From Mesotoga sp. Brook.08.105.5.1 (GTDB lineage: Bacteria > Thermotogota > Thermotogae > Petrotogales > Kosmotogaceae): a stretch of DNA of 64,000 bases. Shown piece after piece: positions 8,114 to 62,024 of the stretch (its first letter is position 1; the number at the start of each line of letters is the position of its first letter). Location: the NCBI RefSeq assembly GCF_002752635.1, contig NZ_AYTW01000011.1, positions 1 through 64,000 on the forward strand. Direction: 5' to 3'. The notes below the pieces were generated by a model. That model made no database searches. It had not been told where the DNA came from and saw only the letters and a program-made list of their open reading frames with translations. Position numbers and translations under genes: made by a program.

Positions 8114-9430
8114 ATGGCCGATTATCACTTGAAATTCGCCCTGAGTTCGAAAGCAAGACGAGGCGCAGTGGTTTTTCTGTTTGTCTTTGTTCTGTCATAC
8201 GTTTTCACCTCTGTCAGTGTCTGGACGACAGACAGCAGATTCATAACGGTGTCGAGATTCATCAGGGTATACGGTCACGAAAATCTAATCAGGGGAACGG
8301 GTTACGCTCCGGAGCAATATCGCTTTGGTGGATTTTATCTTGTGGAATACTTCTTCAAATACATTCCTCTGAAATGGTATGACGTATATAACAGCAGTCT
8401 CTCCGATTTGCTTACGAGCGAAGAGACCTGGACAGAAGAGATGCAGAAAACCGTGGACAAATTCTTCCCCCAGGATGACAGGGAAGAGATGATTGGCGAG
8501 ATTCAGAGGGTGATTGACGAGACTCTAGAATCCTTCTTCCCGGGCAATGCTTTTGTTCAAAATCTTCTGCGGGGTATGATAGACGGTCTGCAATGGCAGA
8601 GCTATTTGACGAATGTCGAAGAGACCCTGCTCACTCTCGGAGAGATGATACCGGAAAATATCAGGAATCATTTGCTTGAGGACAGCGAAGAAACAAGACT
8701 CGTGAACGGATATTTCACGTCGAGATTCTTCCTCTTCATGATCCTTCTGACGATCATCTACTTCCTGTGCAGAGAGTTCCTGAACCCCGGCCAAGCGCTC
8801 TTTGGGGTTGTTCTCTTCACTGCTCTTACGCCGTTTGCTCTTCAGGACTTTTTGCAGGCGGAGACTCTGCTTTCACTGTTGCTGTTTACAGCGATGATTC
8901 TAATAACAAAGAGAGACGGCAGCAGGCTCATTCTAATTCTGATAACAGTATTGTGCTGTACCGCAAGAACGGATCATGCGCTGTTTGGCGCTCTAATATA
9001 CGCTTCGTTAAGAGGAATAGATTCGTTAAGAAGGAGGGAGTGGTCGAAGGCTGTCTACGCCGCTCTGCTTCTCTTCATCCCGCTTGTTGCGACAATTCTG
9101 ATTAGCGGGCTTCTCTTTCCCGAGGCAGAGTACTATGTGGATGTCTTTCAGCTTGAGTTCAATTTGACGCATGTTTGGAACCTGGTTTTTCCTCTTGTCT
9201 TTCTTTTGCTGCCTTTTGCTTTCATCTATCAGATCAAAGAGTTGACGTTCTACAGGAGAACGTGGTTCTGGATGCCACTGTTTATCGGAATGAACTTTGT
9301 TGTTGGAAAGACTGCGGAAGTGAGGCTTTTTCTTCCGGTGATAATCTACTCCATTCCTCTTATAGTTAGGGGTGCAATGCTGGCAATCGGCGTTGATTCG
9401 GTTGGCTCTTCGGATTCTAGAGAGTCTTAG
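8114..9430 (+). CDS. Polytopic membrane protein, possible GT-C glycosyltransferase
   Basis: About 438 residues with an N-terminal helix, a long extracytoplasmic region (roughly 40-200) containing APEQYRFGGFYLVEYFFK, and then about eight hydrophobic helices ending in VGKTAEVRLFLPVIIYSIP. I choose ATG at 8114 behind GTGGGGG. An upstream TTG at 8099 is also in frame. The layout of a first loop with a QYR motif followed by many helices recalls GT-C fold glycosyltransferases that use polyprenyl-phosphate sugars, but no family is recognised with certainty. It is a clear paralogue of the next gene. Confidence 0.6.
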   Translation: MADYHLKFALSSKARRGAVVFLFVFVLSYVFTSVSVWTTDSRFITVSRFIRVYGHENLIRGTGYAPEQYRFGGFYLVEYFFKYIPLKWYDVYNSSLSDLLTSEETWTEEMQKTVDKFFPQDDREEMIGEIQRVIDETLESFFPGNAFVQNLLRGMIDGLQWQSYLTNVEETLLTLGEMIPENIRNHLLEDSEETRLVNGYFTSRFFLFMILLTIIYFLCREFLNPGQALFGVVLFTALTPFALQDFLQAETLLSLLLFTAMILITKRDGSRLILILITVLCCTARTDHALFGALIYASLRGIDSLRRREWSKAVYAALLLFIPLVATILISGLLFPEAEYYVDVFQLEFNLTHVWNLVFPLVFLLLPFAFIYQIKELTFYRRTWFWMPLFIGMNFVVGKTAEVRLFLPVIIYSIPLIVRGAMLAIGVDSVGSSDSRES

Positions 9431-9580
9431 GGATCTGGACAACAACGCGCTTGATTAATGGAACTCTTGATACAGGTTTGAGCAGATAACTGAGAAGGAC
9501 AAGCAATGTTTCTTACGATCGATGACATGATCTTGACATTGGCGATCTCCTTTTGGAAACGCCGTCGGGGGGGATTAAGT

Positions 9581-10870
9581 GTGAAAGACAAGAAAACCAT
9601 ACAGCGAGGGATTTTTCTGTTAATCATCTTCTCGTTACTCTCCTACATTTTCACATCAATGACCGTCTGGACAACTGACGGGAAGTATTTGCTCGTATCC
9701 AGATACTTAAGAATTAACCAGCATGACAGAGTGGTTTCCGGAGAGAATTTCGCGCCTGATCAGTATAGATTTGGCAGCTACTACCTTGTCGAGAATTTCT
9801 TCAAATACTTTCCGATCAAGTGGCTGGATGAAAACAGCGAAGAGCTTTCGAGTATGTTGTTGTCGGCCGATTATTGGACGTCTGAAAAGAAGAGCATGGT
9901 TGATGCCTATTTTCCACTGGATGAAAGGGAGAGCCTTGTCTCTGACGCTGAAAAGGCTATTGCCGAGTTCGTTGACTCCGTTGCAGGGAACAGCATTCTC
10001 CTGAGCAATGCACTCAAAGCAATGGTTGCCGGGCTGAAGTGGCAGGAGTACATTACCGATCCTGCAACCGCGGCGCTTCTAATTGGAGAGAGACTGCCTG
10101 AAGACGTCAAAGCTGCACTAGATCCGTCTAGCGAAGCGAATCGTATTCTTAATGGGCACATCACGGCGAGATTCTTTTTCAACCTGTTAACGTTGCTGCT
10201 TCTTTATGCGTTCTGCCGAATCTTCTCTTCACCTGTAGCATCGTTACTGTCTGTGGTATCATTTCAGGCCATAATGCCGCTCACTACGATGTACTTTGGA
10301 TGGGAGACTTTTCACGGCCTTGCTCTTTTTGTAGGCGGGTTGCTCGTAATTGCCAGAAAAGGCAGATTCTTTCATTTGTGTTTGTTGATTATGCTGGGTT
10401 CTCTTTTCAGAGCTGACCATATGGTATTCCTCCCCTTGATATATCTTCTGTACAATTTCAGAGGCGACATCTCAGGCAAGATTAAATTGAGGCTTATGTT
10501 GAAAAGCTTCATTGCCGGCTCGATTCCTGTACTGCTTATGTATATATTCAGCACTGTTCTCTTTCCTGATGCCAAATACTCGGTCGATCTGATACAGCTT
10601 GGCTATAACATTGGTTACTTCTGGTCATGGATCTATCCTCTTGTATTTCTCTTCATTCCACTGCTATTCGTGAGAGAGATAAGAGATATCGATTTCTTCA
10701 AGAGAACGTGGTTCTGGGTACTCCCGTTTGTCGCTATGAATTTCGTGGTGGCAAGAACCGCTGAAGTTAGGCTATTCACACCAGTACTGGCGTTCATGAC
10801 CCCTCTTGTAGGTGTTGGGTTGCTCAGACTTCTTGCTTCTGAGACCAGAGGTTCCGTTGAAACCGAATGA
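9581..10870 (+). CDS. Polytopic membrane protein, paralogue of preceding gene
   Basis: About 429 residues, colinear with the preceding protein over its whole length. They share SYxFTSxxVWTTD, APxQYRFGxYYLVExFFK, a conserved Arg-Asp dipeptide near mid-protein (FRADHMVFLPLIY against ARTDHALFGALIY) and ARTAEVRLFTPVLAFMTP at the end. The GTG at 9581 is preferred because a G-rich ribosome site lies seven bases upstream and because the paralogue aligns from here. The frame is open upstream to 9506. It is a tandem duplication with strong sequence divergence, so both copies are probably maintained by selection. Confidence 0.6.
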   Translation: MKDKKTIQRGIFLLIIFSLLSYIFTSMTVWTTDGKYLLVSRYLRINQHDRVVSGENFAPDQYRFGSYYLVENFFKYFPIKWLDENSEELSSMLLSADYWTSEKKSMVDAYFPLDERESLVSDAEKAIAEFVDSVAGNSILLSNALKAMVAGLKWQEYITDPATAALLIGERLPEDVKAALDPSSEANRILNGHITARFFFNLLTLLLLYAFCRIFSSPVASLLSVVSFQAIMPLTTMYFGWETFHGLALFVGGLLVIARKGRFFHLCLLIMLGSLFRADHMVFLPLIYLLYNFRGDISGKIKLRLMLKSFIAGSIPVLLMYIFSTVLFPDAKYSVDLIQLGYNIGYFWSWIYPLVFLFIPLLFVREIRDIDFFKRTWFWVLPFVAMNFVVARTAEVRLFTPVLAFMTPLVGVGLLRLLASETRGSVETE

Positions 10871-44536: not shown

Positions 44537-44770
44537 GTCGCAATGCCCGGAAGAGCATCCGGAGACGCATTGCTGCCTTCGGCAGGAAGTGATGCGCCGA
44601 AAAGCATCGGCGGAAGTGATGCCCGGAGGAACATCCGGGGAAGTGATGCTGGAATGAAACATCCGACGCAAGGCTGGGCAAGAACGGCCCAGGTCGCAAT
44701 GCCGGCGAAGATCATGCCGGGACGCAAGGCTGGCGAGGATCATGCCAGGTCGCAATGCCCGCTTCGCGGG
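44537..44770 (+). repeat. Hairpin array A (constant linker plus variable stems)
   Basis: Nine units, each a 9-base linker (GTCGCAATG, GACGCAAGG or GAAGTGATG) and a short hairpin. Stems in order include CCGGA/TCCGG, CTGCC/GGCAG, CGCCGA/TCGGCG, CCCGGA/TCCGGG, a degenerate one, CTGGGC/GCCCAG, CCGGC/GCCGG, CTGGC/GCCAG and CCCGC/GCGGG. Loops recur (AAAGCA, GGAACA, GAAGATCAT, TTC). Unit lengths vary and are not multiples of three. Reading frames through it lack stops only because of composition. Confidence 0.8.
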
Positions 44771-44837
44771 GAAGATCTTCGCCTAAGAATGCGCATCGAG
44801 AAAGAGCATTGTCGAGATGTTCGCTTCGCTCACGAAA

Positions 44838-45188
44838 AGACGAGGATGGAATGCATTGCTTGCATTAGAAGAGAAGTGGGGTGACAAATACCACTTGTCA
44901 ATAAAAAGCTGGAAGGAAAACTGGGAATCTCTCTCAACCTTCTTTCAATATCCAGAGGAACTGAGAAGATTGGTTTATACAACTAATCCCATTGAATCAG
45001 TTAATAGACAACTGAGGAAGGTAACGAAGAACAAAGGAGTCTTTCCTACGGATACTTCTCTCTTAAAGATGGCTTATCTAGCAATAATAAATATAACAAA
45101 GAAATGGACAGTAAGAACCCTTGAATGGTCAAAGATCCTAACTCAACTTGTGATAAAGTATGAAAGATTAGCTAAGTACATAAGCTGA
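44838..45188 (+). pseudogene. IS256-family transposase, C-terminal fragment
   Basis: About 115 residues matching the end of mutator/IS256 transposases: GWNALLALEEKWGDKY, then SLSTFFQYPEELRRLVYTTNPIESVNRQLRKVTKNKG and a C-terminal LAIINITKKWT. The catalytic DDE core is absent apart from the final region. The left side is replaced by the flank of hairpin array A. After the stop, GGGGTTTACACAAAA near 45212 resembles the right end of IS256 elements, so this is the 3' remnant of an insertion sequence. Confidence 0.85.
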
Positions 45189-54983: not shown

Positions 54984-55144
54984 GTACGTAACAGTCTTTC
55001 CAAGTTCGCCAGATATTCTTGCTACGAGGAAAGAAGCGGAATCGTATTCAATAAGATCGATCGAGACAAGACGAGAAGAATCATTTTGAGACGTTCGCTG
55101 CGCTCACGAGCAGACGAGGGAAAAGTTAGTCACTGCTGAAGTAA
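54984..55144 (+). other. Conserved flank (leader) of hairpin array B
   Basis: From about 55050 it contains GAGACAAGACGAGAAGAATC, TTCGCTGCGCTCACGAG and AGTTAGTCACTGCTGAA directly before the first array unit. The same words, in the same order, flank arrays C1, C2 and D (inverted) at 60.1-60.7 kb. No gene. Confidence 0.65.
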
Positions 55145-55437
55145 GACGCAATGCCGCCTTCGGCGGGACGCAAGGCGCCGAAGAGCATCGGCGGACGCAA
55201 GGCTGGCTTCGCCAGGTCGCAATGCCCGGAGAAGCATCCGGGGACGCAAGGCTGGCTTCGCCAGGAAGTGAGGCTCGCTGGCGCGAGGAAGTGATGCCCG
55301 GAGGAACGTCCGGGGAAGTGATGCGCCGAAAGATCACCGGCGGACGCAAGGCTGGCTTCGCCAGGAAGTGAGGCTCGCTGGCGCGAGGAAGTGATGCTGG
55401 AAAAATCATCCCAGGAAGTGATGCCGCTTTCAGCGGG
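55145..55437 (+). repeat. Hairpin array B
   Basis: Twelve units of a 9-base linker plus hairpin. Stems in order: CCGCC/GGCGG, CGCCGA/TCGGCG, CTGGC/GCCAG, CCCGGA/TCCGGG, CTGGC/GCCAG, CTCGC/GCGAG, CCCGGA/TCCGGG, CGCCG/CGGCG, CTGGC/GCCAG, CTCGC/GCGAG, CTGG/CCAG, CCGCT/AGCGG. Linkers are GACGCAATG, GACGCAAGG, GTCGCAATG, GAAGTGAGG or GAAGTGATG. The CTGGC-CTCGC pair occurs twice, as if units were copied together. It is the largest array in the window. Confidence 0.85.
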
Positions 55438-58873: not shown

Positions 58874-59545
58874 TTGAGGGCTGACAACGTACTTGAAAGC
58901 GAGGTAGTCACTCTTCTTGAGCAAGGTGACAACTGTCCTGTATGTCGCTCCATGGAGAAGTCGGTAGACGGGTGGGTGATAGGGGCCTTTTCGAATCTTC
59001 TTCATAATGAAAGCGCTCGAAAACAATTAAGAGAGAACGGGTTATGTAGAGAACACCTAAAAAGAATAGTTGAACTGGCAAGAGAGAAATCCGATGTCGG
59101 CTCTCTTGCCGTTTCGATTATCTTTCGGGAGCTTCTTGTTGAGCAGCTCCTGTGGCTGGAGGACAGCAAGGGATCGATTTTGAAGAAAAGAAGAAAACCT
59201 GTGGATGGAAGCTGCGTACTATGTTCTGTTGCCGCCCAGAGTGAAAAGATATACCTTTCCGCTTTCTGCAAGTTTCTTGACAGAGATGAAGTTCGTAGGT
59301 CGTACGAAGAGTCGTCAGCGGTTTTCTGTCTTGGCCACTCTAAGCATCTTGTGGAGAAGGTCTCGCGACAGACGAGAGAATGGCTGATTACTGTTCAGAA
59401 AAACAAGTATGGCGAGGTTGCGAAAGAGATAGACGACTTCGTTTCGAAGCACGACTATAGAAATGAATCACCCATTGGACCGGAACGTAATGCATGGGTA
59501 AAAGCCTCTAGAATAATAGGAGAGAAGCACTCTACTGAACAATGA
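58874..59545 (+). CDS. DUF6062-like protein with paired CxxC/CxxH motifs
   Basis: A 223-residue soluble protein with two similar halves, each holding a CxxC and a CxxH: CPVC (near residue 21) with CREHL (near 58), and CVLC (near 116) with CLGHSKHL (near 151). This duplicated C-C-C-H arrangement suggests two metal sites, zinc or iron. I associate it with the uncharacterised family DUF6062, but only by pattern. TTG start behind CAGGTGATGGC, closely spaced after the lipoprotein gene. Confidence 0.65.
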   Translation: MRADNVLESEVVTLLEQGDNCPVCRSMEKSVDGWVIGAFSNLLHNESARKQLRENGLCREHLKRIVELAREKSDVGSLAVSIIFRELLVEQLLWLEDSKGSILKKRRKPVDGSCVLCSVAAQSEKIYLSAFCKFLDRDEVRRSYEESSAVFCLGHSKHLVEKVSRQTREWLITVQKNKYGEVAKEIDDFVSKHDYRNESPIGPERNAWVKASRIIGEKHSTEQ

Positions 59546-59840
59546 ATCAAACCACTTTGGCAGTCAACGGTTCACAGGCCTAGGAGAAGGACCGAGAAGA
59601 CCCTTTGAGTTTGAGATGAAGCTTGGCGCTAAGAGCCGTTATTGGTGATACGTGGTTGGTAGTTGGCCAAGAACAAAGAGCTAAAGTTCCTATCAAGTAA
59701 AGAATAGCAAAATCCGGTTTGTCAAAACCAACTCAGTTTGTCGGCCTGACAATTTCCTGGTAACGGTATGCCATGCTCTGGCAATATGACCTTGACCAAG
59801 AACGAAGAACAGATCCTCGCTCCCAAGAACAGATCTTTCC
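59546..59840. other. Non-coding flank of the tandem repeat
   Basis: No credible gene. It contains words shared with the 55.7-kb region, such as CCAAGAACAAAG (59671 and 55738) and the related CCAAGAACGAAG (59797). From 59841 the tandem 354-base repeat begins. Confidence 0.45.
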
Positions 59841-59941
59841 TCTTGGACGGTCAACGGATTACGGCTCTACCCTGCGTACAGCCTTCAGCGGTTTTTGTGA
59901 CCAGCAAAAACTGAGATCGACTCCTGCTCTTTCGCTTCATC

Positions 59942-60095
59942 CTGGGGCGCAAGCGCCAGCATCGCTTCCGCCGGTGATCTTTCGGCGCATCACTTCCCCG
60001 GACGTTCCTACGGGCATCACTTCCTCGCGCCAGCGAGCATCACTTCCTGGCGAAGCCAGCCTTGCGTCCGCCGATGCTCTTCGGCGCCTTGCGTC
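59942..60095 (-). repeat. Hairpin array C1
   Basis: Read on the minus strand: GACGCAAGG plus CGCCGA/TCGGCG, GACGCAAGG plus CTGGC/GCCAG, GAAGTGATG plus CTCGC/GCGAG, GAAGTGATG plus CCCGTA/TCCGGG (one mismatch), GAAGTGATG plus CGCCG/CGGCG, then GAAGCGATG plus a CTGG/CCAG-type end unit. The flank AGTCACTGCTGAAATTA precedes the first unit. Confidence 0.85.
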
Positions 60096-60295
60096 TAATT
60101 TCAGCAGTGACTGACTTTTCACTCGCCTTTTCGTGAGCGAAGCGAACCTCTCGACAAAGCTCCTTCTCGATTGGTCTTATCGGTGAACGGATCCTCTTGG
60201 ACAGCCAACGGATTACGGCTCTACCCTGCGTACAGCCTTCAGCGGATCTTTGTGACCAGCAAAAACTGAGATCGACTCCTGCTCTTTCGCTTCAT

Positions 60296-60449
60296 GCTGG
60301 GGCGCAAGCGCCAGCATCGCTTCCGCCGGTGATCTTTCGGCGCATCACTTCCCCGGACGTTCCTACGGGCATCACTTCCTCGCGCCAGCGAGCGTCACTT
60401 CCTGGCGAAGCCAGCCTTGCGTCCGCCGATGTTCTTTCGACGCCTTGCG
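60296..60449 (-). repeat. Hairpin array C2
   Basis: Second copy of array C within the 354-base tandem repeat. Same unit order as C1, including the same stem mismatch, with a few substitutions in loops (GAACATCGGCG in place of GAGCATCGGCG in the first unit). Confidence 0.85.
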
Positions 60450-60591
60450 TCTAATTTCAGCAGTGACTAACTTTTCACTCGCCTTCTCGTGAGCGCAGCG
60501 ACCGTCTCTATCAGCTCTTTATCGATGCTTCTTATTGGTCTCGCAAGGCAGAAACTGGTCTGTGCGAACAGACAGGCTTCAAAATCGCCTC

Positions 60592-60712
60592 CTGCCGAAG
60601 GCAGCCTTGCGTCCCCGGATGCTCCTCCGGGCATCACTTCCTCGCGCCAGCGAGCATCACTTCCTGGCGAAGCCAGCCTTGCGTCCGCCGATGCTCTTCG
60701 GCGCCTTGCGTC
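60592..60712 (-). repeat. Hairpin array D
   Basis: Five units on the minus strand: CGCCGA/TCGGCG, CTGGC/GCCAG, CTCGC/GCGAG, CCCGGA/TCCGGG, CTGCC/GGCAG. The first three units and the preceding CACTGCTGAAATTA flank are the same as in C1 and C2, while the later units differ. Confidence 0.85.
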
Positions 60713-60767
60713 TAATTTCAGCAGTGTCTTTTGAGAGGTTCTTCATGGAGCTTTGTAATCGTGGTAT

Positions 60768-60836: not shown

Positions 60837-62024
60837 GTGAGCGAGCTCTTTAACAAAGAAGAATTCCTGAAAGGATTGATAAAGAGACTGCACGAAAATC
60901 CGGATAACATCGAGAGCATAAGGGGAGATTTCATGAAAGTTGTGAGGGAATTAACCCCCTTCGAAATCGCACAGGTAGAGCAGAAGCTCGTAGAAGAGGG
61001 GATGCCGCCCGAAAGTATACAGCTTATGTGCAACGTTCATCTCGACGTATTTAAGGAGGCGTTGGACGAAGACGATATCAATGTTGAGCCCTGGCATCCT
61101 CTCCACATTCTGATAGAAGAGCATAGAGACATCCTTAACAAGTCTAAGGCGCTGCGGGATGTCGCGTCCAAGATCGGCAGAGGGAAGTATGGAGAAGAAG
61201 AGGTCAAGCGACTATCTTCGCTGATTGATTATTTTGAACTTGTTGAATCGTATTTCTCTAAAGAAGAGAATGTCCTTTTCCCGTATCTTGAAAGACACGG
61301 CCTCGTTCAACCACCTGCGATAATGTGGAAGGAACACGATGAAGTGAGAGAACTGAGGAGGAAATTAGGAAATGCAATCAGGAATCTGAAGGATGTGCAA
61401 AGCAATACAAACGAATTGGCAATAGGTATTGCAGAGATCTTTTCAAACCATATCTATAAGGAACACAAGATACTCTTCCCCTCTTCGCTCAAACTGCTTT
61501 CCGAGAAAGAGTGGGAGGAAGTCAGAACTCAGTTCGACGAGATTGGATACTTCGCTTTCGAGCCAATGCCTTTTACTCCATCGGCGGTCGAACCTGAAGA
61601 GCAGAGTGTCGAAGGCCTTGTGAACCTGGGAAGCGGTTTCTTGAAAGTCGACCAGCTCAGGATACTTCTTAACAACCTTCCATTCGACATTACTTACGTT
61701 GACGAAGACGATGTAGTTCGATATTTCAGCGAAGGAAAGGAAAGAATATTCACAAGGACGAGAGCGATAATCGGCAGAAAGGTTCAGAACTGCCATCCTC
61801 AGAAGAGTGCCCATATTGTTGAGAAGATTCTTTCTGACTTCAAGAGTGGAACAAGAGACGTTGCTCAATTCTGGCTTAACCTCGAACCTAAAATGGTTCA
61901 TATAAGATACTTTGCGTTGAGAGACAACGACGGGAAGTACGCGGGTACGCTCGAGGTCACTCAGGAGATATCTGAAATCAGGGCACTTGAAGGCGAGAAG
62001 AGGATCTACGATCCTCTGGACTAG
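60837..62024 (+). CDS. DUF438/hemerythrin/PAS protein
   Basis: A 395-residue protein: a DUF438 domain (about 1-75), a hemerythrin HHE-type four-helix domain (about 85-225, with HILIEEHRDIL, YFSKEENVLFPYLERHG, MWKEHDEVREL and YKEHKILFPSS supplying His/Glu ligands for a di-iron site), and a C-terminal PAS-like domain (about 270-385). Such proteins are linked to sensing or repair under nitrosative or oxidative stress. GTG start behind GGAGGTGAAGAA. The Crp/Fnr-type palindrome upstream supports stress-responsive control. Confidence 0.9.
   Translation: MSELFNKEEFLKGLIKRLHENPDNIESIRGDFMKVVRELTPFEIAQVEQKLVEEGMPPESIQLMCNVHLDVFKEALDEDDINVEPWHPLHILIEEHRDILNKSKALRDVASKIGRGKYGEEEVKRLSSLIDYFELVESYFSKEENVLFPYLERHGLVQPPAIMWKEHDEVRELRRKLGNAIRNLKDVQSNTNELAIGIAEIFSNHIYKEHKILFPSSLKLLSEKEWEEVRTQFDEIGYFAFEPMPFTPSAVEPEEQSVEGLVNLGSGFLKVDQLRILLNNLPFDITYVDEDDVVRYFSEGKERIFTRTRAIIGRKVQNCHPQKSAHIVEKILSDFKSGTRDVAQFWLNLEPKMVHIRYFALRDNDGKYAGTLEVTQEISEIRALEGEKRIYDPLD

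Follow-up and report, generated by a model that had tools for sequence, protein, structure and literature searches.

The conserved array flank in Mesotoga as one end module among several of a probable mosaic palindromic repeat

Mitochondrial double-hairpin elements, or GC clusters, are mobile GC-rich hairpins of intergenic DNA in which stems change and loops are conserved, and in the neisserial intergenic mosaic regions (NIMEs), the repeats are bounded by inverted repeats of the dRS3 type. In CRISPR arrays, the leader side is the variable side. The BOX elements of streptococci are built of boxA and boxC ends around a variable number of tandem boxB units and are described, in the part of PMC3049150 at hand, as intergenic, dispersed and probably parasitic. 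A survey of REPs reports CGTC-3 REPs for Mesotoga prima and Kosmotoga olearia and gives the CGTC REPs stems of 8-9 bp beginning with AT, loops of 4-5 nt, CCA tails and head-to-head dimers, clusters being rare; in its accessible parts, no transposase is known for them (PMC3733652). M. prima is also listed in a table of REP counts by RepRanger (PMC12306157, in part). The accessible parts of these two papers (PMC3733652, PMC12306157) do not describe arrays of the kind reported here, nor did we find a description of them in the open-access literature.

Arrays of the window and their flanks

The window, a 64-kb stretch from Mesotoga sp. Brook.08.105.5.1 analysed at its full length, holds five arrays, all of them intergenic, A and B on the plus strand and C1, C2 and D on the minus strand. 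Their linker word pattern matches 38 times in the window, 37 times inside the five arrays, and since shuffled sequence leads one to expect 1.8 matches per strand, chance is excluded. Units are designated by class letters, f standing for the CGCCGA stem, a for CTGGC, d for CTCGC and e for CCCGGA. Array A (44537..44771, +) has nine units, e-b-f-e-q-l-i-j-k, is without the TCACTGCTGAA flank and lies right before the C-terminal piece of a Mutator-family transposase (44817-45188). Array B (55145..55437, +) has twelve units, p-f-a-e-a-d-e-f-a-d-m-s, and follows a 5' module of 78 nt (55064..55144, +) that matches the C1 module at 81%. The remaining arrays share one intergenic block bounded on the left by a DUF6062 gene (58874..59545, +) and on the right by a DUF438-hemerythrin-PAS gene (60837..62024, +). 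C1 (59942..60095, -) and C2 (60297..60451, -) both consist of the six units f-a-d-e-f-r, with 5' modules of about 117 nt (60096..60212, -), at 80-90% to other arrays with the same flank type, and of 89 nt (60452..60540, -), respectively; D (60592..60712, -) has five units, f-a-d-e-b, a tail of type b+GGAGGCGATTTTGAAGCC and, before its first unit, a 17-nt remnant of the 5' module (60713..60729, -). In all four other species having both flanks of this block (G009, G005, G001 and G002), it is free of arrays, the counterpart in G002 holding a single isolated linker-like word; these orthologous sites have diverged strongly from the window locus. Elsewhere in the window, at 8302-10776, repeats spaced 1446 bp apart and about 71-73% alike in matched stretches probably represent a tandem gene duplication. 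A tRNA search of the window gave no match.

The initial annotation had reported a flank word common to B, C1, C2 and D, and this was borne out. Read on the array strand, TCACTGCTGAAATTA stands exactly and directly before the first unit of C1 (from 60095, -) and of C2 (from 60451, -); B (from 55145, +) has the GTAA-ended word TCACTGCTGAAGTAA, with which its 5' module ends, and D (from 60712, -) has ACACTGCTGAAATTA, which lacks the leading T, its likeness to the C1 flank covering 17 nt only. Exact matches to TCACTGCTGAARTTA lie at four places in the whole genome, among them C1 and C2 and neither B nor D. The word belongs to a 5' module of 57-123 nt (80-90%) common to B, C1, C2 and eight other arrays of the genome. 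The start shared by C1, C2 and D, given earlier as three units, is real and extends to four classes (f-a-d-e). It has to be read with the tandem duplication of 59838..60539 in mind (59838-60184 and 60192-60539, no strand assigned; 93.1% over 349 bp, with a 188 nt stretch at 98%): as C1 and C2 are the halves of this one duplication, C1, C2 and D give two independent starts rather than three, and C2 was left out as a duplicate of C1 from the end-agreement and first-unit counts given below. In B, the unit classes likewise agree with the annotation in placing f and a as units two and three and the a-d pair twice, the second pair stemming from a tandem duplication of ~100 bp at 89% (55238-55424).

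Unit order, array ends and differences between species

Searches with array D and a 20-unit array as queries yielded 49 stretches of the source genome (G000), which were parsed together with the window into 72 arrays and 401 units. In the parts retrieved from two relatives, 20 loci each, we parsed 27 arrays with 120 units (G001) and 36 arrays with 181 units (G009); a further 100 kb and 170 kb served for orientation, synteny and strain counts. Each unit of 22-28 nt combines a 10-nt linker (GACGCAAGGC, GAAGTGATGC, GTCGCAATGC, GAAGTGAGGC and a few variants) with a 12-18-nt hairpin; the G closing the hairpin word pairs with the final linker C. Linkers vary, and the hairpins recur across arrays and species as a vocabulary of about 21 classes, of which class q (e.g., CCTTATAGAACATTG) is non-palindromic. 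A GNRA-type hairpin inside the linker was considered and rejected, linker positions 3 and 8 showing no consistent pairing among the listed linkers. Further words were met outside the arrays. Seven isolated GAAGTGATGC words lie on one strand over 2.7 kb of G001 (C1:1736969-1739677) without the usual array spacing, other recurring mosaic words such as GGTTGGGGGTCGG runs surround arrays in the intergenic DNA of G000, G001 and G009, and the GTCATCCTGAAG...GTTCAGGATCT words that recur around arrays may be the CGTC-3 REP of the genus.

The order of units is strongly directional. Transitions between adjacent units run in the majority direction 272 times versus 21 in G000, and 68 versus 3 and 107 versus 5 in the relatives, and the mutual information of adjacent units exceeds that of all 500 shuffles in each of the three genomes. 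Arranging the classes in a single linear order accounts for 73%, 91% and 85% of pairwise precedences, versus 62-65%, 67-76% and 66-70% in shuffles; unit order is thus a grammar rather than one fixed ancestral series. The 20-unit array contains an internal block duplication, adeghi-adeghi.

Close to the flank, unit order is non-random, as had been proposed: with the TCACTGCTGAA-type flank, f comes first, after an optional p, in 11/11 arrays versus 13/60 of the others (p = 1e-6). What is not supported is the picture of one anchored and one variable end. At least five types of 5' end occur, most with preferred first units, the GTCATTGGTGAAATGA flank being followed by i in 5/8 arrays and the CAGTTGCAAGATGCA flank by b-d-e-r in 5/6, and the last units are tied to the 3' tail no less firmly. 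In 28/28 comparisons, arrays sharing the GGAGGCAAAAACCAAA tail have the same unit at each of the last three positions, and for the GGTTCAACG tail agreement is 21/21 at the last unit and 9/28 at the next; background agreement is 0.12 and 0.10 at the first two units, 0.21 and 0.18 at the last two. Tail types are defined by the sequence just after the last hairpin, and as this overlaps the hairpin in one type, agreement at the very last unit is partly circular there, which does not apply to penultimate units. Both array ends are thus anchored. The flank represents one end module among several in a mosaic repeat, not a CRISPR-like leader.

Where non-repeat DNA of G001 and G009 aligns, it is mostly 87-97% identical, and orthologous arrays can be compared unit by unit. 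Some are the same in both species. In one pair (b-d-e-r versus b-d-g-h-j-e-k), flank and first units match and the remainder has been replaced; in another (d-e-c-r versus i-h-?-d-e-c-r), three units are inserted before the shared d-e-c-r; a further locus has one array in G001 and two in G000. These comparisons and the duplications described above show blocks duplicated in tandem, units inserted or lost, and, between close species, exchange at unit boundaries; the shuffling and copying of units that had been suggested from the window is supported. Among 34 G001 arrays tested against G009, 12 had a partner, nine on the upstream side only (one locus counted twice), one on the downstream side only and two on both. 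In a wider count from G001, 13 were upstream-only, two downstream-only and four spanning (11 versus 2 without duplicated loci), in that from G009 five, four and three, and G000 comparisons gave 2 versus 2 and 3 versus 2 for upstream- versus downstream-only. Arrays of fewer than three units were left out of strain and orientation counts, and the upstream and downstream tallies also omit arrays with less than 500 bp of flank. The comparison of strains for gain or loss of units, which the annotation had called for, hence shows the upstream side more often kept when seen from G001 and not when seen from G009 or in the G000 comparisons, and a bias toward conservation of the 5' side is unproven.

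These data bear directly on the proposal of a leader-like flank beside which units would be gained or copied in one direction. The fixation of the first unit by the flank speaks for it, as does the upstream side being kept in 11 versus 2 loci seen from G001, but the asymmetry is missing from the G009 and G000 counts, there are several flank types, and the 3' tails are equally anchored. Moreover, the growth that can be seen consists of block tandem duplications, as in B and C1/C2, and of swaps at unit boundaries, not of addition beside the flank. The analogy with CRISPR also has the wrong polarity, for the leader side is variable in CRISPR and the conserved units of these arrays are the flank-proximal ones. 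We therefore regard a leader-plus-array organisation as very unlikely.

Arrays also coincide with changes of gene order. In a 100-kb stretch, 9/32 ends of synteny blocks fall within 30 bp of an array, versus an array coverage of 3.3% (p = 7e-7), a statistic whose ends are not fully independent and in which repeats can shorten BLAST blocks. G001 has a segment of 1.8 kb, carrying a gene for an IS110-type transposase, that G009 lacks and that ends on one side at a unit boundary; as linkers are shared between units, any breakpoint appears to sit at a linker, and such evidence for breakage at unit boundaries is weak. In G001, near-identical loci at about 1.91 and 1.835 Mb, separated by ~76 kb, indicate a large segmental duplication. 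One might think of integron-like junctions, arrays between gene cassettes serving a site-specific integrase as recombination sites. The synteny breaks would fit, and so would the shared orientation of all 24 arrays of G009 C8 and of 17 consecutive arrays in G001 (C1:1214898-1269501), in both of which neighbouring genes point in both directions; against this, arrays do not follow each gene, and no integron integrase (TIGR02249) scored above the cut-off in the 10 genomes of the genus, which makes cassette junctions highly improbable. Regarding a replication-strand bias, GC skew tracked gene strand, and neither origin nor terminus could be placed.

Hairpins, distribution and the search for a spreading factor

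Stem pairs are Watson-Crick in 86-100% of units in the 12-, 13- and 17-nt classes (123-125/129, 58-61/61 and 181-202/211, respectively), with several pair types in the 12-nt class and up to four per position in the 17-nt class; the 18-nt class pairs less well (58-90/102, with the innermost pair at 58/102). Stems measure 5-6 bp, and the first pair is C-G (linker C and next G) in most units. The short loops read T-N-C in 120/129 and T-N-N-C in 60/61 cases, 180/190 together, that is GNA or GNNA on the other strand, closed by C-G in 125/129 three-base and 59/61 four-base loops, with C-G, G-C or A-T as the next pair; the other loops have 6-7 nt. To our knowledge, the GNA/GNNA loop motif is otherwise known from DNA chemistry. 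DNA mini-hairpins with a GNA or GNNA loop on two or more G-C pairs are extraordinarily stable, GCGAAGC melting at 78 C, as stated in the accessible part of PMC4686876, and in sequence the short array hairpins match this class in loop and closing pair. Among distinct hairpins, loop ends changed at 8/90 positions and loop middles at 18/57 (p = 7e-4), although units are related by descent and loop conservation is not an independent sample. Outside arrays, in an array-rich region, such loops are somewhat commoner than in shuffled sequence (37/151 versus 10/92 three-base-loop hairpins). As single-stranded DNA, the complement of D is predicted to fold into its five unit hairpins and that of B is not, and no fold prediction of an array reached a z-score beyond -2.

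After landing, the hairpins appear to decay. In 22 orthologous units of G001 and G009, we counted eight stem substitutions in 250 sites (3.2%), all eight of which break a pair, beside 5/198 changes in linkers (2.5%) and 3/121 in loops (2.5%), so that resident copies look unconstrained, small as this sample of 22 units is. Hairpins that are intact in the shared vocabulary and decay once in place fit a requirement in the copying step better than a function for the host at every site. This also weighs on the reading of the arrays as a structured RNA, or a 3'-UTR or terminator element with an effect on adjacent genes. Such an element would be favoured by the strong local pairing, in which one position can show several pair types, but the stem changes at orthologous arrays are uncompensated, and only 2/60 four-base loops would be GNRA, which renders an RNA tetraloop constraint less likely. 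Furthermore, the predicted RNA fold of D pairs its units with each other, Rfam covariance models gave no match in the window at the gathering threshold, and array orientation relative to neighbouring genes is mixed, yet constant along extended stretches whose genes lie on both strands. An RNA-level function thus seems quite unlikely to us.

The linker-pair pattern occurs in 7/103 genomes of the phylum, all of one genus (7/10 of its genomes), and a reversed control pattern in none. BLAST of 41 genomes returned the same seven carriers plus one array at a contig end of G010, of the same family. Such arrays also turned up in a Kosmotogaceae bin and on two contigs, one from a bin labelled Acidobacteriota (JAKQCT010000020.1) and one from a bin labelled Bacteroidales (JALHHH010000130.1); both contigs carry arrays of this genus and are therefore suspected to be misbinned. 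Among the genomes searched, the arrays are nearly confined to this one genus of the Kosmotogaceae, probably Mesotoga. A viral or plasmid vehicle was rejected, the plasmids and phages searched giving no match and the viral contigs 27 single matches, none with a palindromic spacer.

The search for a trans-acting spreading factor found none. The occurrence of arrays does not go along with that of Y1 transposases, integron integrase, IS110 or IVP genes. High copy number, palindromic units and intergenic position are what one would expect of a REP/RAYT-type element, whose hairpins are mobilised by a Y1 tyrosine transposase as in GTAG REPs, and the source genome has three Y1_Tnp (PF01797) matches. 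PF01797 was, however, not found in 4/7 carriers, G001 and G002 (both 99% complete) among them, and it occurs in two of the three non-carriers, the array-free G006 and G007; only 1/10 Y1 loci examined has an array nearby, and the common linkers show no GTAG tag. Without correlation with array carriage, a Y1/RAYT transposase was rejected as mobiliser, and we deem an element of this type unlikely. IS110 was rejected as well, being absent from the carriers G002, G005, G008 and G009. IS110 elements are reported to target REPs (PMC1525189, in part). In G001, six of seven copies of two IS110-type groups (423 and 457 aa) have an array at a distance of no more than about 2 kb, versus 3/40 background pieces, though at no fixed place, and none of the four copies of a third group (415 aa) is near one. 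Finally, an array precedes a 23S_rRNA_IVP gene (PF05635), one such gene occurring in G001/G009, and at C8:34500-38499 of G000 an array stands before each of three tandem 23S rRNA-IVP/four-helix-bundle genes. A cassette of array and IVP gene was rejected, an array being found at 2/30 IVP loci and the carriers G002 and G005 having no PF05635 match.

Taken together, we think it likely, with some reserve, that the arrays are a dispersed, non-coding, modular palindromic repeat whose blocks are duplicated and exchanged, with slippage or template switching at the units. Each array would be built of a 5' end module, an ordered run of units and a 3' end module. On the strand opposite to the one on which the arrays are read, the short hairpins would form C(GNA)G or C(GNNA)G mini-hairpins, and the near-identical linkers and hairpins, folded as single-stranded DNA, would stall or misalign replication or repair. 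A polymerase could then slip or switch template between units and between arrays, and whole blocks with their end modules would thereby be copied to other intergenic sites, the conserved flank being a 5' end module that would travel with the first units. Most of the copies now in place seem to have no function for which their hairpins are required. It is tempting to go further and to see in the arrays a mosaic mobile repeat with DNA structure as its heritable form. Its stable C(GNA)G/C(GNNA)G mini-hairpins, on one defined strand, would be recognised by a putative factor that acts on single strands and belongs to one Mesotoga clade, or else by the replication machinery itself, and the recognising agent would copy and re-splice units and make arrays sites of gene-order change; this stronger version is speculative and, in our opinion, rather improbable.

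Comparison with known repeat systems

The arrays offer a usable system for the question, left open by the CGTC REP survey (PMC3733652, in part), of how short palindromic repeats spread without an obvious transposase. They may also serve to ask whether hairpin arrays seed genome rearrangement. The roughly 700 units parsed in three genomes constitute a large natural collection of hairpins, in which duplication, loss and exchange of units are visible between sister species.

With CRISPR, the arrays have in common a flank and an array of short units, but CRISPR repeats are near-identical and their spacers unique, whereas the sequences between the linkers here form a shared palindromic vocabulary. 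Mitochondrial double-hairpin elements and GC clusters differ in being organellar and in having two hairpins per element. We know of no hairpin array of the present build in NIMEs. The neisserial regions (NIMEs, dRS3) resemble the arrays as large intergenic mosaics of small repeats, to judge by the accessible parts of PMC3049150 and PMC3733652. The REP and BIME families (GTAG and CGTC) are alike in being short extragenic palindromes found in clusters. From the CGTC REPs, the arrays depart in their stems of 5-6 bp with a first pair that is mostly C-G, their head-to-tail units and their loops of TNC/TNNC or 6-7 nt; from the GTAG REPs, in that none of the 25 linker words most frequent in each of the three genomes has a GTAG foot and that a cognate Y1 transposase does not go with array carriage, PF01797 being present in 3/7 carriers and 2/3 non-carriers. 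In design, the arrays resemble BOX elements, which are equally modular, intergenic and dispersed, with end modules around a variable number of internal units. In BOX, boxB is one repeated unit, whereas the arrays draw on about 21 hairpin classes in a preferred order, with several alternative end modules on the 5' and on the 3' side. By analogy, the Mesotoga arrays may be read as working like BOX/BIME mosaic repeats.
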